From: a virus
Length of the DNA: 46,081 bases
Reading direction: 5' to 3' (one strand)
Virus record (IMG/VR): IMGVR_UViG_3300009181_000124
Coordinates: 1 to 46,081 of that record
The notes under the pieces are model-generated. The model saw nothing but the letters and a program-made list of their open reading frames with translations. It did not search any database and was not told the origin of the DNA. Positions 1,656 to 24,339 of the stretch are shown here, piece after piece. The number at the start of each line of letters is the position of its first letter. Position 1 is the first letter of the stretch. A program made the translations under genes and the position numbers.

Positions 1656-1952
1656 CTAAATCTCTTCTAAGATAATTGCGATTACTTGATTTTCTGCTGT
1701 TCCATAATATTCTTCTCCTTCAAATTCAATTTTGGTTGGACCTATTTGAGGTAAAATTACCTTTTGACCTACTTTTAATGTTGTTGGAACGAATTCTCCT
1801 GTTGCACAGTAGTAACCAGGACCTACAGATACAATAGTACCTACTAGAGATTTTTCCTTTCCGAGGTCAGGAACGATAATGTTTCCGTAAGTGACTTCTT
1901 CTTCTACTTTGGGTTTGACAATGATACTGTTGAATACAGCTGTTAACTTCAT
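1656..1952 (-). CDS. groES: Co-chaperonin GroES
   Basis: Small heptameric lid of the chaperonin, 98 residues, the usual length for GroES (about 97). The N-terminal strand (VFNSIIVKPK), the mobile loop region (EEVTYGNIIVPDLGKEKS, about 17-35), and the roof and C-terminal strand (VGQKVILP, EGEEYYGTAENQVIAII) are recognisable. The mobile loop would contact the GroEL apical domain. The gene is preceded by a rho-independent terminator and a class II motif, so it appears to start its own unit with the homing endonuclease and groEL downstream. Phage-encoded GroES/GroEL pairs are known in several large phages; this one is ordinary in length and motifs. Confidence 0.93.
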   Translation of the reverse strand: MKLTAVFNSIIVKPKVEEEVTYGNIIVPDLGKEKSLVGTIVSVGPGYYCATGEFVPTTLKVGQKVILPQIGPTKIEFEGEEYYGTAENQVIAIILEEI

Positions 1953-6179: not shown

Positions 6180-6211
6180 TAAATATATGTCTATAAGTCT
6201 TGGAAGCCTAA
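6180..6211 (-). promoter_or_regulatory. Class I promoter facing the cassette array
   Basis: The sense strand reads TTAGGCTT-N16-TATATTTA. The TTAG includes the stop codon of the polymerase C-terminal gene. It would now drive the remnant ORF and then the cassette genes, giving them phage transcription. Confidence 0.8.
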
Positions 6212-7092
6212 TTAAATGTAAAAAATTTCTTAACGTTTGGATTGAGTGTTGGAAATTCCCATTTTAAGTCTTCATAAAGTGACTTTAACTTGTTAGCCAA
6301 CAATGAGTCAAATATTTCTTCAACATCAATGTACTGTTTAACAAATTCTTCAATTTCAGGAGGTGTTTTAGCATTTGGAACGCCTATTGTTTCTATTCCA
6401 AATGGATTTTGTTTTAAGTTGATAACAAACAGTTTGTCGCCTTCAATTATGCTCTCGTATTTTTTGTCTAGCTTTTTAAACTTTAACAAGTCATTATAAC
6501 GAACTGCTGCTTTTGTGTTGAATGGTGCTTTCAATTTAAATCTACTGAATATTTCTCCTGCAGTTGACCTTATTTGATAGTTAGATATTTGTTTTACTCC
6601 TGTAGGCTTTCCTAGTTCTTTTGGGTCTAGTGTTTTAAGTGACTTGTAAAAGTCAACAATGTTGTTGTCTATTTCTTCTTTTGGTTTGCCAAACAACACA
6701 TCTTTAATTAAGTTTTCACCAAACTTTTTAAACAGTTTGTTCATGTTGGACTTCATTAGTTCAAGTCCTTTCATGTCTAGTTCTTCAACAGGCACACCTT
6801 CCTTGTTGGTAACATACATGGCATATCTTCTTTTACCAGTAGTTAAAACCCCGGCACAAATTACTTCTTGTTTTAATTGGAAGTAATGTGTGTCGGGGCT
6901 GATGTTGAATAAACGCTTACTTAAACTGTTTAAGTTGTCGTTTGACTCATTTTGAATTTGGGTGGCTAATTTTAATATAATCTCATTTTTGTTGGCATCG
7001 TTGATTTCAATGCCTTGAGACTTCATGTATTTTATAATGTGACCTAAACAAATGTATAAACTATCAGTGTCACTTATAATAATATTTTGCAT
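6208..7092 (-). CDS. Family B DNA polymerase, C-terminal half (split gene)
   Basis: The 294-residue protein begins MQNIIISDTDSLYICLG: polymerase motif C (DTDS) stands at residues 8-11, followed by palm and thumb segments with the KRRY block (about 87-90), NPFG and VKQYIDVEEIFDSL. It ends VKKFFTFN, a clamp-binding-like peptide comparable to the C-terminus of T4 gp43. It lacks the exonuclease domain and motifs A and B, which are in the separate gene at 13044-11296. Together the two are 876 residues, near T4 gp43 (898). The halves presumably assemble into one enzyme. The gene follows a 69-residue ORF with 1 nt between them, behind its own class I promoter at 7325-7356. Confidence 0.93.
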   Translation of the reverse strand: MQNIIISDTDSLYICLGHIIKYMKSQGIEINDANKNEIILKLATQIQNESNDNLNSLSKRLFNISPDTHYFQLKQEVICAGVLTTGKRRYAMYVTNKEGVPVEELDMKGLELMKSNMNKLFKKFGENLIKDVLFGKPKEEIDNNIVDFYKSLKTLDPKELGKPTGVKQISNYQIRSTAGEIFSRFKLKAPFNTKAAVRYNDLLKFKKLDKKYESIIEGDKLFVINLKQNPFGIETIGVPNAKTPPEIEEFVKQYIDVEEIFDSLLANKLKSLYEDLKWEFPTLNPNVKKFFTFN

Positions 7093-7093
7093 A

Positions 7094-7303
7094 TTATGAA
7101 TTTGCCTTTACCTGCATGTATGGTTGAGGAATTGTTAATGTAACGTTGTATTTTTTGCTCCATTCTTCTGCAAAACTATTGAATTCTGCAAGAGCTGCTT
7201 GTTCACGTTTAACCATATCATCAATGACCGCTTGTTGTGCCTTTTTTAAGTCAATGGTTTCTTCTTCTGTTGCTGCTTTAATTGGTTTTTTAGGTTGTAA
7301 CAT
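7094..7303 (-). CDS. Hypothetical protein, 69 residues, cotranscribed with polymerase C half
   Basis: Lysine- and glutamate-rich helical protein (DLKKAQQAVIDDMVKREQAA, then FAEEWSKKYNVTLTIPQPYM), unrecognised. The YNVTLTIPQPYMQV ending recurs in small phage proteins. Its stop codon is 1 nt from the polymerase C-half ATG, so the two are translationally linked. Class I promoter 7325-7356 lies directly upstream. A role in polymerase assembly is possible from the linkage only. Confidence 0.7.
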   Translation of the reverse strand: MLQPKKPIKAATEEETIDLKKAQQAVIDDMVKREQAALAEFNSFAEEWSKKYNVTLTIPQPYMQVKANS

Positions 7304-7324
7304 ATTTTTTGTTTTATTTTATTT

Positions 7325-7356
7325 TAAATATAAAAAAGAATATTTAACTTTCCAAA
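7325..7356 (-). promoter_or_regulatory. Class I promoter for polymerase C half
   Basis: The sense strand reads TTTGGAAA-N16-TATATTTAAAA, with the same 16-nt gap as the other class I promoters. It gives the detached polymerase half its own start. Confidence 0.7.
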
Positions 7357-7393
7357 TTTACTTCATTAAAAGTAACATTTTTCTTGTAATTCT

Positions 7394-7645
7394 TTAACTA
7401 TTGGTGTAAGTTTCTTGAATGTAAACTAATGCCGCGTCAGTAGAGTATTGATCCATTAACAGTGGATCAAAAGTTGCAATAGTAACTTCGAATGTTGTGT
7501 TGTCAACTTGTTCAAATTTTCCTACTGGTGCATTTTCAATTTTTACAACAATCTGTTGGTTGAAAATGTATTTTGTTTTGTTTTCATTTAATTGTGGAAT
7601 ATTATTACTTAAGTAAGTTCCTGCTAATTGATAAGTTAATGCCAT
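7394..7645 (-). CDS. Hypothetical, probably structural, protein, 83 residues
   Basis: Beta-rich small protein (MALTYQLAGTYLSNNIPQLN, then ALVYIQETYTNS) with no named family. It directly follows the large tail-fibre gene and a weak class II-like AT motif, so I infer a virion or fibre-associated protein. It has no signal peptide or membrane segment. It is the last gene of the structural module that lies between the two DNA polymerase halves. Confidence 0.65.
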   Translation of the reverse strand: MALTYQLAGTYLSNNIPQLNENKTKYIFNQQIVVKIENAPVGKFEQVDNTTFEVTIATFDPLLMDQYSTDAALVYIQETYTNS

Positions 7646-7694
7646 GTTACAAAGTTATTATTTATTTTGTTATATATTATTTATTTTATTATAT

Positions 7695-10600
7695 TTAGCA
7701 TGATACCCATGCTGCTCCGTTGTAAAATACTCTAACTGTAACAGCCCCGCCACCAACTAAGGCGGCATTATATGTTGGCAAAGTTGCATCGGTTACATAA
7801 GCGGTATCACCTACTGACCCTGCGGGTAAAGTAGCAACTGTGTAACCCATTAATTTTATCGGAACCGCTGCCGTAACCCTTAATTCTCCAATAGTAAATC
7901 GCGTTGTTGCTGTTTGCAATGTCGTTCCACTTGCTAATGTAGTTCCTGTTTGAAAAATAATATTTGGAGGAGTGGCGTTTCCTGTGCTGCGTGTAGCAAA
8001 TGTAAGTGATGCCCCTGCGTTATTTGAACCTGAACCTCCACAAGCATTAAGAACAGTCGAATATGCTGCTGTGTGTGTTACTCCGTTAAAGTACCAATTT
8101 GAAATATAACCATTAGCACTATTTGAACCCAAAACACCCTGATTAGCTGCTGTTGCTGTTGCTAAAAAGCCTATACAAACGGTTGCATTAAATGTACTAT
8201 ATGCTCCACCACCTAATGATACAGCAAAATTTCCAGAAGCATATGTAACATTATATTGACAATTGCCAATAGCTGTCGAATTTACTCCTGCAACGTTTGT
8301 TCCAGAAGATAAATTTCCACCAATTGCCAATCCATAACCGCTGGCAGTGGCTTGTCCCATAGCTATTGAACCATAAGTTCCTATTGTAGCTGATGGCCCT
8401 ATTGAAAAACCATTTTCTGCTACACCAAGTCTTAAAAATTTAGCTCCACCTAAATTTAAACCATTTGTTGTTGCTGTTCCACCTGACGCTCCAATATTTA
8501 AAAGGTTATTTGTCTTATCCCAAGTTAAATCTGCATCCTCGCCATATACACCACTGTCATTAAATGGTATTCTTGTTGAAGTTCCGCTTGTTATGGTGGT
8601 TGTGCCTACTGTTATTCCTGATGAAGCCGTTGCCCAAGATAAAGTAGCCACTCCTGCTGCGGGTGCTGTACTCTGTAATACCTGCCCTGCCGTTGGTGCT
8701 GTTGTTGGTAAATCGTATGTTATAGAAGCGGACGGATTTGTTCCTCTGAATGTTTGGATGAAAGCATTGGTAGCGTTTCTTAACACTAAAGTTCCTGCCA
8801 CGCTACTTGCTACTCCTGATGTTACTGCGCCTGTTAAAACCAAACTTGTTCCTGTTGCTACTCCTACATATGATGATGTTGAAGCAAAAGAACTACTTAC
8901 TGCGTTTAAGACATATGATGCACTTGTTGCGTTTTGAACATATGATGCGCTTACTGCGTTTAAGACATATGATGCACTTACTGCATTAGATGCTGTACCA
9001 ATTAATGTTCCTGTAAATGAACCACTAAATGAACCGGTATTACTTAAAAATTGATCTACTCTATTTGCTGTTACAATAAGTGATGGTATGCCTGGTACTA
9101 CTCCGAACCCTGCTTCAGCATGTAATCTTACATTTGCATCCGGTGAATACCACATTAATTGATAATAATCATTTGCTGCTGAGTTAACAAAGAAATTCCA
9201 TGCTGCAACATAGTGAGCTCCATTTCCTACAAGTTGTATAGAAGTAGCTGAGTCACTAATATCAGTTCCATTTTTTCTTAGCCAAATCCATATCTCATCT
9301 GTTCCACTATCTGTTTTATCTACTTGAGCAGAAAATTGAATATCATATACTCCAGCATTTTCTGTTTTAATATATGTATTAAATGGATTTGTTGAACCTG
9401 AAATAGATACTCCGTTTGTAATATCTGTTATATTAAGAGACATTGAACGAGCGGTACCTGCTATATTAGTTTGTATTTGAGTAGAATAAAAGCTACCATA
9501 TGAACCAGTTGCCGTATTAAATCCTCCTCCACCTGATGTTGAAGAAATAGTAACTTGACCTAAACCATTTGTTGGTGATAATGTTACATTTGGTCCTGCT
9601 AATAATTGAGTTACACCACCGTTTAAAGCAAATGAGCTACTTACAGCTTGTAATACATATGATGCTGTTAAAGCGTATGAAGATGTACCTGCAAATTGGG
9701 AAGCATTAGATCCAGTGTATAAATTGAATGATGCTGTTGTTACTAATGACCCTGTGTCTACTGATCCTCCTCCATTTAGTGAATATGATGCTGTTAAAGC
9801 GTATGATGCACTTGTTGATGTGGAAGCATAACTCGCTGTTCCAAATAAAGATCCAGTAAATGATGGGGCTGTTACTCCTCCAGGCATTGAAAGTGTACCA
9901 TCATTATTAAAATTCCAGGTGTGTGAAGCTGAGGTTTGAATATAAGCACCAAAGTCATCTACCCAAATAAGTGATTGTGTGTTGCTTGATGCTAATTCTA
10001 CATATTCTCCGGGTGCAGCTATTATATCAATGCCTCCTCCATAAAATAAATTATTTACAAGACTACCTCCTTTTAAATTTATAGAACCAGTCACTTCTAC
10101 ATTATTAATAAAAGCAACTTTATCTGGATATACCAACAATCCATTTTCAGCATTGTATCCATTTACTTGTAAGCCTATACTTTGTGTTGAGTCGTTGTGA
10201 AAAACAAATCTACCATCATCCCAACCAAAGTAACTCATTATAGAGTTTGTTGTTGAGAATGTGTCATTGTAAAAACGAGATGTCCAAGGGTATGCATTAT
10301 TAGCATGAATTTCTTGAATTGCTAGGTTTGGACTACCAACCGTTGGAGTTAACATTATGTAACCATTATCTCCAATTAAAGATTGATTGCCTAACACACC
10401 TACTGAACCTGTAAATTGAGCTGGTCCTATGTTTATAAAAGTGTTAGAACCACTTACAATAAATGAACCTGTTATTTCAATACTACTTGTAGTATTCCAA
10501 ATGTTTCCACCTACATAAGTAAAAGGAGCAGAAGATCCGGATGGGCCTTGAGAGCCAGATGGGCCTTGAGAGCCAGATGGACCAGGAGGACCTTGAGAGC

Positions 10601-10808
10601 CAGATGGGCCTTGAGAGCCAGATGGACCAGGAGGACCTTGAGAGCCTGATGGACCTTGAGAGCCTGATGGACCTTGAGAGCCAGATGGACCTTGAGAGCC
10701 AGATGGACCAGGAGAACCTTGAGGACCTAATGAATTAACTGTCACTACACTAGTAGATGGATTTAATATAGTAACAGTATTAGCGTCTGAGATAATATTT
10801 ACTGACAT
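7695..10808 (-). CDS. Tail fibre protein with collagen-like and YadA-head-like repeats, 1037 residues
   Basis: Large probable host-recognition fibre. Residues about 28-92 are Gly-X-Y collagen-like repeats (GPSGSQGPSGSQGPPGPSG). A beta-rich shaft follows with many short repeats of the ASYALTASY / SASYVLNAV kind (about 330-400 and 610-680). The C-terminal third contains trimeric-autotransporter-head-like segments (GSIAMGQATASGYGLAIGG, NSTAIGN) and ends in a compact VGDTAYVTDATLPTYN ... AAWVSC domain. Such proteins are normally homotrimers. The C-terminal third is visibly GC-richer than the rest, which suggests domain exchange. The gene starts 4 nt after the preceding virion gene ends and lies between the two DNA polymerase genes. 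Confidence 0.88.
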   Translation of the reverse strand: MSVNIISDANTVTILNPSTSVVTVNSLGPQGSPGPSGSQGPSGSQGPSGSQGPSGSQGPPGPSGSQGPSGSQGPPGPSGSQGPSGSQGPSGSSAPFTYVGGNIWNTTSSIEITGSFIVSGSNTFINIGPAQFTGSVGVLGNQSLIGDNGYIMLTPTVGSPNLAIQEIHANNAYPWTSRFYNDTFSTTNSIMSYFGWDDGRFVFHNDSTQSIGLQVNGYNAENGLLVYPDKVAFINNVEVTGSINLKGGSLVNNLFYGGGIDIIAAPGEYVELASSNTQSLIWVDDFGAYIQTSASHTWNFNNDGTLSMPGGVTAPSFTGSLFGTASYASTSTSASYALTASYSLNGGGSVDTGSLVTTASFNLYTGSNASQFAGTSSYALTASYVLQAVSSSFALNGGVTQLLAGPNVTLSPTNGLGQVTISSTSGGGGFNTATGSYGSFYSTQIQTNIAGTARSMSLNITDITNGVSISGSTNPFNTYIKTENAGVYDIQFSAQVDKTDSGTDEIWIWLRKNGTDISDSATSIQLVGNGAHYVAAWNFFVNSAANDYYQLMWYSPDANVRLHAEAGFGVVPGIPSLIVTANRVDQFLSNTGSFSGSFTGTLIGTASNAVSASYVLNAVSASYVQNATSASYVLNAVSSSFASTSSYVGVATGTSLVLTGAVTSGVASSVAGTLVLRNATNAFIQTFRGTNPSASITYDLPTTAPTAGQVLQSTAPAAGVATLSWATASSGITVGTTTITSGTSTRIPFNDSGVYGEDADLTWDKTNNLLNIGASGGTATTNGLNLGGAKFLRLGVAENGFSIGPSATIGTYGSIAMGQATASGYGLAIGGNLSSGTNVAGVNSTAIGNCQYNVTYASGNFAVSLGGGAYSTFNATVCIGFLATATAANQGVLGSNSANGYISNWYFNGVTHTAAYSTVLNACGGSGSNNAGASLTFATRSTGNATPPNIIFQTGTTLASGTTLQTATTRFTIGELRVTAAVPIKLMGYTVATLPAGSVGDTAYVTDATLPTYNAALVGGGAVTVRVFYNGAAWVSC
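10530..10727 (-). repeat. Collagen-like Gly-X-Y coding repeats
   Basis: A short unit encoding GSQGPSGSQGP is repeated almost identically about ten times within the fibre gene. Such DNA can expand or contract by slippage. Confidence 0.85.
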
Positions 10809-10812
10809 TGTA

Positions 10813-11211
10813 TTATGTTGTTACTTGATTACTTAATCTAATTTGGCCTTCTAATAATCTTATAGTGTAAGGACAATCACTACCTGAGTACAATTCTAAA
10901 TCATAGTAAGCTGTAGGAAATGTAAGTAAAGATGAAGTACAAGAGGATATGTATATTCCAATGGAACCACTTGTTGGAGGTGTAATTCCATTACTTCCAC
11001 TAAAATTTAAACCTGTTCCATCTGAATTTAAAGAACTAGACAAGGTAATGTACACAGTGCGAGTAACATCATATGCATAATTAGACGCAATTTGCATTCG
11101 ACCTGAGTAGTTAGTTAAGTCTACTGGGTTGTTTAGTGAGTCTAGATATTGTATTTCAAAATTAGTTGTTGCTCCTTGTTCTATAGTAAAAGAATATCTA
11201 CCTGCTGCCAT
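10813..11211 (-). CDS. Virion structural protein, 132 residues
   Basis: The start MAAGRYSFTIEQGATTNFEI with IQYLDSLNNPVDLTNYSGRM, and the end IRLLEGQIRLSNQVT, form a pattern I know from virion proteins of T4-like marine phages (IEQGATT-x-FEIxYxD ... LEGxxxLSxEVT). It is probably a small beta-sandwich fibre- or head-associated protein; the precise location is unknown. A class II motif (11223-11230) precedes it, and the tail fibre gene follows 4 nt downstream, so the two form a late unit. Confidence 0.75.
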   Translation of the reverse strand: MAAGRYSFTIEQGATTNFEIQYLDSLNNPVDLTNYSGRMQIASNYAYDVTRTVYITLSSSLNSDGTGLNFSGSNGITPPTSGSIGIYISSCTSSLLTFPTAYYDLELYSGSDCPYTIRLLEGQIRLSNQVTT

Positions 11212-11222
11212 TAATTTTTTAT

Positions 11223-11230
11223 TATAAATA
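11223..11230 (-). promoter_or_regulatory. Class II (late-type) motif before structural module
   Basis: The sense sequence CATATTTATAATAAAAAATTA precedes the ATG at 11211. It begins the late unit that lies between the two polymerase halves. Confidence 0.5.
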
Positions 11231-11295
11231 TGTATTCTTTATAAAAAAATTAAACTTTTACTACTATAAATCCATTCCTATTTAATGTAAATATT

Positions 11296-13044
11296 TTATA
11301 AATTGAACTTAGCTATCAATTCTTCTTTACTTAACTGTAAATACTCATTGTTTATTTTATTGTTTACAAAGTCAATAGTAGACATAGTTAAACGTTGTCC
11401 TGAGTTTGTAATGGCTGAACTACAAATCAAGTGACCATCAGTGTATCTCCATCCATTTTTAGCAAAAGTACCATACATTGCGTTTTGTAAAATTTTAAAA
11501 CTATGTTGAAATAAGTCGTACAATTTATAGTTAGTCCAATCTTCTTCCTTACCTGCTTTCTTTTTTAGTGCTCTATAATGTTCTCTCTTTTTAAACCATC
11601 CTTCTAATATTTTAGCTACAATACTTTGTTCATCTGTTCTAAACATAGCACCTGATGCTGCAATAGTAAAGTTGTTTTTTTCAATTAAGTCAATTAAGTC
11701 TTTTAATTTTATTTGGGCTGACTTAAGAGTGTAATTTTCTTTGTTTAACTTTTCAATTTCTACTATTTCATTTGGATCTCTTTCTTTAAGCTTTTCTAAT
11801 GATTGGTTTTGCTCATAAGTAACATCGTGATGTACTTTAATTCTACCTACTAATGTTTCAATGGCTAAGTTAAGAGACTTAATAATACTAGGATACAGTG
11901 ACGTAAAGTCTAAGTCTATGACGTCAAAGTACAAGCCAGATATTGGTTCAAGTAAATATCCGCCAGCATATGATATATTATCCGCTTTTAAAGACGAATT
12001 ATGAGTAGTTGGCTTATTTGGTGAAACAATGCCTTCTCGTTTTAAATACTTTAAAATTGCGCCTTCATTCATAACTGTGTTCCAATATATGCTTTCATAA
12101 GGAATGTTACAGATGTGGGATATCATGATGGTCAGTTCAATGAACTTTAACTTGTCTTCAAGTTTTTCTAAAATGTCAACGTCACGTAAGTTATAGTCAA
12201 TAAAAGTATTTAAGTCGTTTTTAAACAATGTGTTTAAATTTCCCTCATATTCTACCTTACCTAAGTCAACGTATTTTAAGCCAATGTCTCCTAGTTTATA
12301 TGATGGTTCTTCCTTCATAATGTATTTTTTATGAAGTAACATATAGTCTAAGTGATTGACTCCTCCTATTCTAACTTGTAAAGTACCTGCAAATTCTCTA
12401 AAGTTGATTTTTCCAATAGGAGACATTCTCAATATTTCGTCGTCGCCTAAAGTGTGTTTAATTCTGAAGTATAAGTAAGGCATGTCAAAGTAAGCACTGT
12501 TCCATCCCACTACTATTGTTGGGTCTAATTCCTCCCACTTGTCTAAGAATTTTTTGATGAGTTCCTTTTCAGAAACACATGGTACAATGTGTTTACCATT
12601 TTCATTTGATTCTTGAATTTCCTTATTTTTGTCTACAACAAAACACATTTTAGTCTTTGTAGTCATGTCTATTAAAGCAATTGAAGTTATAGGCATAGGA
12701 GCAGCCTTGATGTATTCAGGTGTTAAGGCACCTCCCATTTCAATTTCAATGTCTAAGTATACAATGTTGTGAAATGAAGGTACCACGTCATCATACTTAT
12801 AGTACAATTCTCGTAAAATGAGAAGTTCCTTGTTGATGTCTTTTTCTAAGAGATTAGTGTCGTCTTTACTGAATTTTTTAGTTGGAATTGCAAATCCTCC
12901 AGTTAAGATAGGTTGAGCACCTTCTTGCCATTCATCAACTCGTTTCCAATAAGTGGGTTGATATTGAAATTTAGACCATCCATTTTTATCATCTCGAAGA
13001 TAATATGTGTAGTCCTCAAATGAATAGTGAAGTGCTTGATACAT
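11296..13044 (-). CDS. Family B DNA polymerase, N-terminal half: exonuclease plus motifs A and B
   Basis: The 582-residue protein holds the 3'-5' exonuclease motifs (Exo I VYLDIEIE near 96, Exo II VVGWNSAYFD near 180, Exo III YNLRDVDIL near 285), polymerase motif A (DLDFTSLYPSI near 378) and motif B (KILQNAMYGTF near 520). It stops after the helix SGQRLTMSTIDFVNN with a tail ending AKFNL. Motif C is absent and is found at the start of the gene at 7092. T4 gp43 carries all of these in one chain. The gene follows dUTPase by 16 nt behind class I promoter 13524-13555. Split gene 43 forms are known in some Aeromonas T4-like phages. Confidence 0.95.
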   Translation of the reverse strand: MYQALHYSFEDYTYYLRDDKNGWSKFQYQPTYWKRVDEWQEGAQPILTGGFAIPTKKFSKDDTNLLEKDINKELLILRELYYKYDDVVPSFHNIVYLDIEIEMGGALTPEYIKAAPMPITSIALIDMTTKTKMCFVVDKNKEIQESNENGKHIVPCVSEKELIKKFLDKWEELDPTIVVGWNSAYFDMPYLYFRIKHTLGDDEILRMSPIGKINFREFAGTLQVRIGGVNHLDYMLLHKKYIMKEEPSYKLGDIGLKYVDLGKVEYEGNLNTLFKNDLNTFIDYNLRDVDILEKLEDKLKFIELTIMISHICNIPYESIYWNTVMNEGAILKYLKREGIVSPNKPTTHNSSLKADNISYAGGYLLEPISGLYFDVIDLDFTSLYPSIIKSLNLAIETLVGRIKVHHDVTYEQNQSLEKLKERDPNEIVEIEKLNKENYTLKSAQIKLKDLIDLIEKNNFTIAASGAMFRTDEQSIVAKILEGWFKKREHYRALKKKAGKEEDWTNYKLYDLFQHSFKILQNAMYGTFAKNGWRYTDGHLICSSAITNSGQRLTMSTIDFVNNKINNEYLQLSKEELIAKFNL

Positions 13045-13561: not shown

Positions 13562-13777
13562 TTAATCTTCTTTAAAGAAGTTAGTTAAAAATTTACCTAC
13601 AACTCCAAGTGTAATTGAACTAACAATCATTGCTCGTAATTGTCCTGATGTAAAGATTTCTTTAAGTGCTTCAAATTGCCAAATGCCACCTACAGCGATT
13701 ACTGTTGCAGCTGCTAATAGACCGTCACCGATCTTTCTCCATTTTTTAGGGGTTGGTGCCCAATACTTATTCATCAT
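13562..13777 (-). CDS. Small membrane protein, putative holin
   Basis: A 71-residue protein with a basic N-terminus (WAPTPKKWRKIGDGLL) and two hydrophobic stretches (LLAAATVIAVGGIW and MIVSSITLGVVGKFL), ending in acidic KED. The KxWxPTPKKWRKIGDxLL start recurs in small membrane proteins of phages that infect Bacteroidota. Size and two predicted transmembrane helices fit a class II-type holin that would let the M15 endolysin reach the cell wall. Holin function is inferred from topology only. A class II motif at 13792-13799 precedes it, consistent with late expression. Confidence 0.6.
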   Translation of the reverse strand: MMNKYWAPTPKKWRKIGDGLLAAATVIAVGGIWQFEALKEIFTSGQLRAMIVSSITLGVVGKFLTNFFKED

Positions 13778-14004: not shown

Positions 14005-14904
14005 TTAATACCCTGGGTAATAGCTTACTAAATGCCATACTGTTCCAATAGACATAAATGTAAGAACTTCTCTATCACTTAATGGATTAACATAAGGACC
14101 TCCACCAAACTGGACAGTATTACCTGTTGCGGCTGTTATTGTCCAATAAGTGGCGCTTGTATTTTGAATGTTTTTTATAATTAAAATTCTTCCATCAGTT
14201 GTTCCAGATACTAAAGTTGGTAGTGTTAAAGTTGCTGTATTTAGTCCCGCTCCAGTCATATAAACAATATAATCAGTTGCAGCTAAAGTTGTGGCAGTTG
14301 TAGTAACATATGTTGTAACTTTACCAGCTATATTTCCATTTACCTTTAGTGTTGAGCCTGGTGTAGTTATTCCTATACCTACATTAGTACCATTATCAAA
14401 TGTTGTTCCTATTCCTATTGTAGTAGCACTTGTCCAACGAACAAGATAGTTAGTAGTACCTCCACTTAATGTAGCTGCAGCGCCTGTAGGACCTGTAGCA
14501 CCTACAGAACCATTTGATCCTGCTGTTCCCGTTGCTCCAGTAGCTCCTACTGCACCATTGGTTCCATTTATACCATTTGATCCTGCAGTACCTGTAGCTC
14601 CATTTATACCTGTAGCTCCTGCAGTACCTGTAGCTCCAGTAGGTCCTGTTGCTCCTATAGGTCCAGCAGTCCATGTTAATGCACCTGCACCACTATTATA
14701 AAGGTATCCTGCACTATGTGCAACAGGCCAACTATAACCTGATACATTATTTATTTTTATTGGATTACCTGATGAATTGATTTGGAATTTACCTTCAACA
14801 TCAAATAATGATGTTGGAGTAAAGCCTGAAGATGTACTAATGCCTACTTGAGCATAAGTAACCATACTAAATAAAGAGAATAGTAATACTAGAAGATTTT
14901 TCAT
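14005..14904 (-). CDS. Secreted collagen-like protein with signal peptide, 299 residues
   Basis: An N-terminal Sec signal (MKNLLVLLFSLFSMVTYAQ) is followed by a beta-rich region, then a Gly-X-Y collagen-like segment (GATGPTGATGTAGATG and similar, about 80-143). The C-terminal domain contains VGIGITTPGSTLKVNGN, a pattern common in Bacteroidota secreted and fibre proteins. A signal peptide is unusual for a virion protein, so export to the host periplasm or surface is likely. The ATG overlaps the stop of the T9SS-cargo gene (ATGA), showing tight coupling. It may alter the host surface, or it may be a host-derived gene. Confidence 0.75.
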   Translation of the reverse strand: MKNLLVLLFSLFSMVTYAQVGISTSSGFTPTSLFDVEGKFQINSSGNPIKINNVSGYSWPVAHSAGYLYNSGAGALTWTAGPIGATGPTGATGTAGATGINGATGTAGSNGINGTNGAVGATGATGTAGSNGSVGATGPTGAAATLSGGTTNYLVRWTSATTIGIGTTFDNGTNVGIGITTPGSTLKVNGNIAGKVTTYVTTTATTLAATDYIVYMTGAGLNTATLTLPTLVSGTTDGRILIIKNIQNTSATYWTITAATGNTVQFGGGPYVNPLSDREVLTFMSIGTVWHLVSYYPGY

Positions 14905-16073
14905 TGTTTTATAAATTTAAAGGTGTATTTATTTGTTTCGTTTTCCATTCTAAAGTAATAAGTTCCATTAGCTAAATTAGTAACATCAAACTTTGTTTTA
15001 TTACTTAAATCATCAAAAACTAATTTTCCATTAACATCAAATATTGTGAAATGATATTTAGAAGAATGATTTACATTAAATACTCCTTCGTTTGGGTTAG
15101 GATATAAAACTATGGTTTTTATTTCATTACAACCTACTATAATATCACTGTATTCAAATTCATCATTATTATCTACTTGTTTTAACCTATAATATTGATA
15201 TGTGTTTTCTGTTTGATATGAATAATAAACTAAGGAGTTTGAGTTCCCTTCGCCTGAGATAGTATCTATATCAGTAAAAGTACTAGCATTATCACTTCCT
15301 TGAACAATAAAGTATTTGTTATTTGTTTCAGATGCAGTTCCCCACATTATTAAACCCACACAGTTTATTTTAAAATAAACTAATTCAATTGGTAAAGCAT
15401 TACCACCGTCTACAGCAGTCCATGTTTCATAATAATCCTGTACGTTGGCTAAGTTAATGATTATTGTATTAAGTCCAGTATTAGAGTAAGGAGAATAAAG
15501 CCAGTCACCCCATCTGTCAGCCACATCGTTATAACGTTGCATCGTTAAGTTTGACTCAGTGATTGTGTTCCCGACTAAGTCAAGGTCAGCATAAGTAAAT
15601 GTTACAGTAGACTTAGGCTCTGCAACAGGATAACCATTAAATTTAATTTGCCAAAATCTGTCAATAACACTGATAGAGTTATCAGCATGTGCATCGTTGG
15701 TTACAAAATTAACTAGAGATGGATAAGGAGTATTGCTGTTGGTTGTTTCATAAGTATTTAGTTCAATGTTTGTTCCTGGAGAAGTAGAAGTTACATTCAA
15801 CAATAAAGGTATTCTTGTTCCATTAGAAGCAACATATGGAATAGTATATGTTCCTAATGTTGAACCGGTTACTAACCATTTTATTTTTGCTGTTTCATTT
15901 TGACAGTAAATTCCTCCACTTGTTCCTATGTCTCTTAGTCCAGTTGGATCATTTTTAGTTAAAACTAAGTATGTATTTGCTGAAATGTAAACATATGAAT
16001 CTTTAATAACCATTTGTGAAAATGACAAAGTAAAGTAAAAAAATAATATTGTAAAAATTATAGTTTTTTTCAT
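14901..16073 (-). CDS. Secreted protein with type IX secretion C-terminal sorting domain, 390 residues
   Basis: The start MKKTIIFTILFFYFTLSFSQ is a Sec signal peptide. The body is beta-rich. The region LPIELVYFKINC ... MWGTASETNNKYFIVQGSDN ... YYRLKQVDNNDEFEYSDI is the block that in Bacteroidota proteins precedes a sorting domain. The last 75 or so residues (IVLYPNPNEGVFNV, FTIFDVNGKLVFDD, LANGTYYFRM) form a type A T9SS sorting domain. Such proteins cross the outer membrane through the T9SS and are attached to or released from the cell surface. It is cotranscribed with the collagen-like protein and follows the 86-residue gene by 6 nt. Role unknown; surface modification or exclusion of other phages is an inference. 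Confidence 0.88.
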   Translation of the reverse strand: MKKTIIFTILFFYFTLSFSQMVIKDSYVYISANTYLVLTKNDPTGLRDIGTSGGIYCQNETAKIKWLVTGSTLGTYTIPYVASNGTRIPLLLNVTSTSPGTNIELNTYETTNSNTPYPSLVNFVTNDAHADNSISVIDRFWQIKFNGYPVAEPKSTVTFTYADLDLVGNTITESNLTMQRYNDVADRWGDWLYSPYSNTGLNTIIINLANVQDYYETWTAVDGGNALPIELVYFKINCVGLIMWGTASETNNKYFIVQGSDNASTFTDIDTISGEGNSNSLVYYSYQTENTYQYYRLKQVDNNDEFEYSDIIVGCNEIKTIVLYPNPNEGVFNVNHSSKYHFTIFDVNGKLVFDDLSNKTKFDVTNLANGTYYFRMENETNKYTFKFIKQ

Positions 16074-16079
16074 AGTTTA

Positions 16080-16340
16080 TTAGAATTCATTTCCAAAATT
16101 TGGTGTTTTTAATTTATTTCCATTTTTATCTTTAGCAAAATCTAAACAAGTACAAGTTAAGTTACCATTGTCTGATAATGCAAAGAATAAAAATTCTTTA
16201 ACTGTTTTATCATCACAATTAGTTAAGATGTACATCGCGTCTTTTCTTGCTGACAATTTGATGTTTTCTTTAACTAACTGTTTAAGTACTTTTTTTAACT
16301 TAGAATTGACTTTATATAAGTCATTAGAATTCTTTTTCAT
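16080..16340 (-). CDS. Hypothetical protein, 86 residues
   Basis: Basic helical N-terminal half (NSKLKKVLKQLVKENIKLSA) and a C-terminal half containing FALSDNGNLTCTCLDFAKDK. The CTC pair is the only potential metal- or redox-active feature. No family recognised. It lies 19 nt after FolE and 6 nt before the T9SS-cargo gene in one operon. Function unknown. Confidence 0.65.
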   Translation of the reverse strand: MKKNSNDLYKVNSKLKKVLKQLVKENIKLSARKDAMYILTNCDDKTVKEFLFFALSDNGNLTCTCLDFAKDKNGNKLKTPNFGNEF

Positions 16341-23700: not shown

Positions 23701-24339
23701 TTACTCAAATATAACTTTTAAAATAGTATTTTTTTCTTCTCTTAGTCCAATGTCTGAGTTAAAAATAGTCTGAATGTAAATTCTAGCTGTGTCTCCAATC
23801 ATTTCATTGTCGAAAAAGAAGTTTTGTTGTGGGGTGTAAGTGTACTTACTATGTGTACCTAGTAAAGTAGAAGTATATGGACAATCCCAACACATATAAG
23901 GACTTAACTGATAGCCGGCTATATTTAGTGGTGGTTGAATTTCTGCTAGAGTCTTTAATGTGTAAGTATATCCCCCAATAGAAATAGGAGTATTGAACTG
24001 GTTATTTGTAAACCAACCTAAATAAGAATACATTGGTGTTGTATATTGAATAGTGTCAAAAATTACCCAATAATCAGAATCGAAATTTACTTCAATTAAA
24101 GGGACTCCATTGACTACATATTTTACATCTAGTTGAGATAAATTACCTTTAATTGTAAAATAATTTGCGCCTAAATAAGACACGTGCCAATATCCATCAG
24201 ATTGAAGTGTAGATGAAGGTGAAGTAATTATATAGTCACTGTAACATCCTCCAGGACATGTTTCTTTAGGTTCTAGTGATTCTTTTTTACAACTTATTAA
24301 TGTAACAACAGTTGCTAAGATGATTAATATTTTTTTCAT
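23701..24339 (-). CDS. Phage-encoded lipoprotein, 212 residues
   Basis: A type II signal peptide with lipobox (MKKILIILATVVTLISCKKE, lipidated Cys17). The lysines after the Cys are typical of Bacteroidota lipoproteins. The mature part is beta-rich with several Cys (TCPGGCYS, YMCWDCPYT), suggesting a disulfide-bonded or metal-binding periplasmic or surface domain. No family recognised. It is a single gene between two class I promoters (24353-24384 upstream, 23663-23694 downstream), so it is probably expressed early or mid infection. A superinfection-exclusion role would fit, but is inferred only. Confidence 0.8.
   Translation of the reverse strand: MKKILIILATVVTLISCKKESLEPKETCPGGCYSDYIITSPSSTLQSDGYWHVSYLGANYFTIKGNLSQLDVKYVVNGVPLIEVNFDSDYWVIFDTIQYTTPMYSYLGWFTNNQFNTPISIGGYTYTLKTLAEIQPPLNIAGYQLSPYMCWDCPYTSTLLGTHSKYTYTPQQNFFFDNEMIGDTARIYIQTIFNSDIGLREEKNTILKVIFE

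Follow-up and report, generated by a model that had tools for sequence, protein, structure and literature searches.

A gene on a T4-like phage fragment encodes a protein, P0001, that looks like a genuine type A cargo of the type IX secretion system (T9SS), and it overlaps a second gene, P0002, for a collagen-like protein with a Sec-type signal of its own. The reading that we prefer, with a probability of about 70%, is that the pair is a captured surface-protein module in which a T9SS-exported cargo and an exported fibre would modify the infected cell's surface. The window, by which we mean the whole stretch of DNA that was analyzed, is a 46,081-base IMG/VR fragment with its main genes all on the minus strand. 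It encodes T4-type PolB, UvsX, a DnaB-like helicase and an ssDNA-binding protein, and matches to baseplate-wedge and tape-measure proteins were also found. The window is a fragment of a T4-like Bacteroidota phage; at the family level only, the evidence points to Bacteroidota as its host. The region around the pair holds the following features:

13562..13777, minus strand: 71-aa small membrane protein
14005..14904, minus strand: P0002, 299 aa, with Sec-type signal, VGIST...FDVEG motif, collagen repeats and C-terminal knob
14901..16073, minus strand: P0001, putative T9SS type A cargo gene, 390 aa, ATG at 16073
14904..15107, minus strand: type A T9SS sorting domain (CTD) of P0001, residues 323-390, TIGR04183
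15138..15395, minus strand: FN3-like domain of P0001, ~residues 227-312
15408..16004, minus strand: N-terminal beta-rich domain of P0001, ~residues 24-222
16017..16073, minus strand: Sec-type signal peptide of P0001, ~residues 1-19, assigned by sequence and hydropathy
16080..16340, minus strand: 86-aa gene, upstream of P0001 with a 6-nt gap

The sequence-only reading had placed a gene at 14901-16073 and given no strand for it. The ORF is real and lies on the minus strand; the plus strand of the same interval holds many stops. All three motifs quoted in that reading are present in the ORF, which encodes, in this order, a Sec signal, an N-terminal beta domain, an FN3-like domain and a C-terminal sorting domain. 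The N-terminus, MKKTIIFTILFFYFTLSFSQ, has lysines, a hydrophobic core (mean hydropathy ≤2.7) and an SFS/Q end, and by sequence and hydropathy it reads as the Sec signal that had been claimed. Relatives of the N-terminal beta domain occur in large surface proteins of Bacteroidota, on their C-terminal side, and the FN3-like domain carries the motif LPIELVYF...W.TASETNN...YYRLKQVD. None of the PHROG families covers P0001, and domain searches detected no enzymatic domain in P0001 or P0002.

The proposed type A T9SS sorting domain was recovered by two family models. TIGR04183 matched residues 323-390 of 390 over the whole model (1-72) with an E-value of 8.9e-14 and 51.2 bits (cut-off 23), and PF18962 agreed (E 7.2e-14, 52.3 bits, cut-off 27). 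The TIGR04183 match is far beyond chance, and P0001 alone was matched by this model in the whole 46,081-base record. The structure of P0001 was predicted by AlphaFold with 30 aligned relatives; the mean pLDDT was 82, and it reached ∼90 across residues 341-390 of the CTD. The predicted model has the Ig-like beta-sandwich fold of a CTD. In Foldseek comparisons the predicted CTD aligned to 8glk_D, the NucA CTD solved within the F. johnsoniae translocon, with a TM-score of 0.78 by target length and an rmsd of 2.0, and to 8glj_D (FspA CTD) with a TM-score of 0.72 by target length; the sequence match between P0001 and 8glk_D had an E-value of 3e-4. Type A CTDs have an almost invariant lysine close to the C-terminus (PMC10994853). 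In P0001 this conserved residue is K386, which aligns with the lysine of the NucA CTD and is a K or R in 26 of the 30 aligned relatives. According to the literature, type A substrates use PorV and end up either anchored or released.

The two genes overlap by 4 nt, the stop of P0001 and the start of P0002 sharing the letters ATGA, and they are probably translationally coupled. P0002 has no CTD. It resembles tail-fibre families via its collagen repeats, and its relatives in viral contigs are mostly collagen-repeat matches, which are uninformative. Signal-bearing VGINT genes adjoin FN3-CTD genes with gaps of 2-9 nt in three contigs (L093, L098, L166). A search begun from the L098 fibre found signal-bearing fibre genes in L098, L373 and L374, each followed 9-14 nt on by a gene that encodes a signal and either a full or a short CTD, so that the fibre-cargo pair occurs in five further phage contigs. 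The cargo comes first in the window and the fibre first in the other paired contigs. By profile comparison P0001 is related to the cargos of these pairs, mainly over the FN3-like domain (E 7e-45), and P0002 matched the L093 fibre in BLASTP with an E-value of 3e-16, helped by the collagen repeats. At the same locus, the relatives L021 and L052 have a different T9SS type A gene, and a beta-helix gene with a signal overlaps it. A general host operon that joins type A cargo and fibre was also considered and is unsupported: 2 of 23 fibre genes in host genomes adjoin a type A cargo gene, about the background expected from ∼75-150 CTD genes per genome (cargo makes up ∼4% of genes, as measured). Adjacency to a type B cargo gene was found in 4/23.

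The region between folE and polB, in which the pair lies, is variable. Related polymerase loci (73) were fetched for comparison. L004 and L060 are 95% identical to the window up to 13816, carry another gene in place of the pair and match once more from 16371 (folE); they share the 71-aa membrane protein, which may be holin-like and marks the downstream edge of the insertion. In L005, L006 and L067 the match extends over the 86-aa gene, which is the upstream edge, and the P0001/P0002 pair is absent. As the flanks match relatives without the pair, the ∼2.2-kb block of P0001 and P0002 is an insertion in the variable region. Another contig (L002), 7,376 bases long, encodes residues 1-360 of P0001 at 100% identity and has the upstream genes at 99.6-100%. 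That P0001 is a phage gene, as the sequence-only reading held, is upheld by the phage genes around it, by the flanks in common with L004, L005, L060 and L067, and by its presence on this second contig. Contamination with host DNA, the objection which that reading had itself raised, is excluded by the phage flanks, by L002 and by the relatives with the same flanks and an empty site.

The same neighborhood bears on a possible role in lysis, in which late export of the proteins would loosen the outer surface (S-layer, capsule) for release. A small membrane protein gene adjoins the pair, in L052 and L011 the same region encodes small membrane proteins and has an endolysin-like gene (a GH19 match, tested in L052), and glycoside hydrolases are among the cargos of the published Cryophage. 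P0001 and P0002 themselves, however, have no enzymatic domain, and we consider a lysis helper very unlikely.

Regarding the origin of the cargo gene, all of the best 80 genome relatives with the FN3-CTD design (80/80) belong to Bacteroidota. These were retrieved with an alignment query; a scan of genome contigs with the single P0001 sequence returned nothing. A Flavobacteriales UBA2669 protein (L172) aligns along the whole of P0001 (30%, E 5e-50). Because full-length relatives are present in Bacteroidota genomes, P0001 appears to be a captured host-type cargo.

A search of phage genomes for sorting domains, as the sequence-only reading had proposed, showed that type A or B cargo genes recur sporadically in related T4-like phages. 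Besides the window, a type A domain over the cut-off was found in 3 of 73 records of T4-like relatives (G020, G042, G051) and type B (CHU_C) in 5 of 50 scanned records (G008, G009, G010, G031, G037); both counts are lower bounds, since many records are short fragments. As few T4-like relatives have such a cargo, it is not essential. In G020 and G051 the type A gene is at the same place, ∼2 kb upstream of polB, and the gene after it, which encodes a signal-bearing beta-helix protein, overlaps it. The T4-like relatives with type B (CHU_C) cargo genes include L084-L087 and L011, and in G008 and G037 the type B cargo lies in a conserved gene run, adjacent to a large gene that lacks a signal.

When viral contigs were scanned with an alignment, 166 stretches proved to encode FN3-CTD relatives, and among the 80 of these that were kept most complete ORFs begin with a signal, by a crude test. 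Terminase_6N was matched in 14 of 50 viral FN3-CTD records, and in L155 and L373 a T4-type major head protein gene lies directly upstream; at least part of these records are therefore certainly phages. In the INPHARED phage collection, tblastn with the cargo returned only four unannotated huge-phage records, and tblastn with the fibre gave no match. The four records (LR756504, LR756500, LR756502 and LR745206; L088-L091; 462-642 kb) have genes with FN3-like domains, three of which (L088-L090) start with a Sec-type signal.

The position directly after the major head protein gene in L373 and L155, and the similarity of P0002 to tail-fibre families through its collagen repeats, would also suit a virion component, that is a fibre or decoration, envelope-folded or added late, and not a cell-surface protein. 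Tailed phages assemble in the cytoplasm. A virion protein is expected to have no export signal, but P0001 and P0002 both carry one at the N-terminus, and the CTD marks surface export. Given its Sec signal, a virion role of P0001 is unlikely, and we rank this explanation as the least probable of the alternatives weighed here.

The 80 kept viral relatives, a non-random sample, comprise 60 with a short C-terminus and 20 with a longer one. The short C-terminus has ∼35 residues, NLLGQEVD..YKGLVIEIYSDGT.KK, after the FN3-like domain, and occurs in L112, L135, L153, L155 and others as well as in host sequences of some Flavobacteriales (L252-L254). None of the NCBIfam models recognized the short form in the examples scanned, and the short form may represent a T9SS signal that is still unmodelled. 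A short CTD exclusive to phages was ruled out, since 22 of 150 genomes from the order to which Crocinitomix catalasitica belongs have matches to nearly the whole model. The contigs L098 and L373 have 85-93% nucleotide identity on both sides of the cargo region. Their cargo genes are near-identical up to FN3, diverge over the rest of the coding sequence and become similar again beyond the stop codon; one cargo has the full CTD at its end and the other the short form. This difference can be read as an exchange of export modules that would be equivalent. Both genes of the L098/L373 pair are under purifying selection (dN/dS 0.11 for the cargo upstream of the swap and 0.14 for the fibre).

These results also bear on whether P0001 is a host passenger gene gained by recombination, which would be exported if expressed and be of no use to the phage. 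Such a gene could account for the sporadic distribution among relatives, the host-like architecture of P0001 and the variable locus between folE and polB. It agrees less well with the independent recurrence of signal, FN3 and CTD genes in many viral contigs, with the purifying selection in the related cargo-fibre pair and with the intact-looking C-terminal module retained through the module swap. We therefore regard a passenger gene as unlikely.

The captured surface-protein module that we favor starts from what is recognized by sequence, namely the signal, the CTD, its predicted fold, the gene overlap and the recurrence of the pair; expression, actual T9SS export, the partnership of P0001 and P0002 and a benefit to the phage are what we infer. 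The two overlapping genes would have been captured from Bacteroidota surface proteins. P0001 would be made during infection and exported by Sec, its type A CTD would be recognized by the host T9SS (SprA/PorV), and the protein would then be anchored on the infected cell or released. P0002, as a Sec-exported collagen-like fibre, would probably act with P0001. The pair could alter the infected-cell surface through adhesion, receptor masking or the exclusion of other phages. The sequence-only reading had suggested that the protein may coat the cell, keep out competitors or change adhesion. More tentatively, and with less than even odds, the pairs may represent a recurrent two-gene module of Bacteroidota phages, in which a Sec-exported collagen/knob fibre and a T9SS cargo with export/anchor ends swapped by recombination (the full type A CTD vs. 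the short, unmodelled CTD) remodel the infected-cell surface.

The idea of a phage-encoded T9SS cargo was already published for Cryophage, together with a suggested role in superinfection exclusion or inter-strain competition (Bellas et al., 2020, PMC7468147). As in the present case, the genes belong to phages of Bacteroidetes, encode type A sorting domains and lie in variable regions, and the same use of the host system was proposed. In the 76-kb Cryophage the cargos comprise an endoglucanase, a GH39 and a PA14 protein, whereas here a non-enzymatic FN3-type protein and an exported collagen fibre are encoded by a T4-like phage. T9SS sorting domains were also noted in 2019 in crAss-BACON phages (cluster 2 proteins; PMC6949934), which are gut phages with BACON repeats; no such repeats were found here. 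Three UniProt entries of uncultured Caudovirales (A0A6J5M2J1, A0A6J5M064, A0A6J5L910) are annotated as 'Secretion system C-terminal sorting domain', but they are not described as a system and their overall TM-score to P0001 is below 0.3. Type A cargos of host Bacteroidota, such as L172 with its whole-length alignment to P0001, are chromosomal, and many host relatives have further large N-terminal parts that are absent from P0001. New here are the frequency of cargos in phages, the pairing with a fibre and the swapping of export ends.

If the genes work as read, lytic phages would put their own proteins on infected cells via a phylum-specific exporter. Among the exports of the T9SS are gliding adhesins that have been proposed as phage receptors (PMC13288928), and a cargo would thus offer a means of blocking or changing adsorption. 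Both the fibre-cargo pairing and the C-terminal module swap provide concrete genes for testing, and in the short C-terminus current family models may be missing a T9SS signal.

Several other features of the window were observed. A gene at 23701-24339 (minus strand) has a lipoprotein-like signal, and its N-terminus matched the Cor superinfection exclusion family phrog_1119 weakly (E 0.001), which is likely driven by the signal peptide. DNA polymerase B (6208-13044, minus strand) is split just before motif C (DTDS) into an N part (11296-13044) and a C part (6208-7092), with a tail-fibre-type gene cassette (7094-11211) between them. The same split was seen in eight relatives (L007, L008, L010, L024, L028, L032, L044, L072), with other genes between the parts, GIY-YIG-like in L024 and L028. 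By sequence inspection, GroEL-like and GroES-like genes lie at 1-903 and 1656-1952 (minus strand), a position that is conserved in several relatives.
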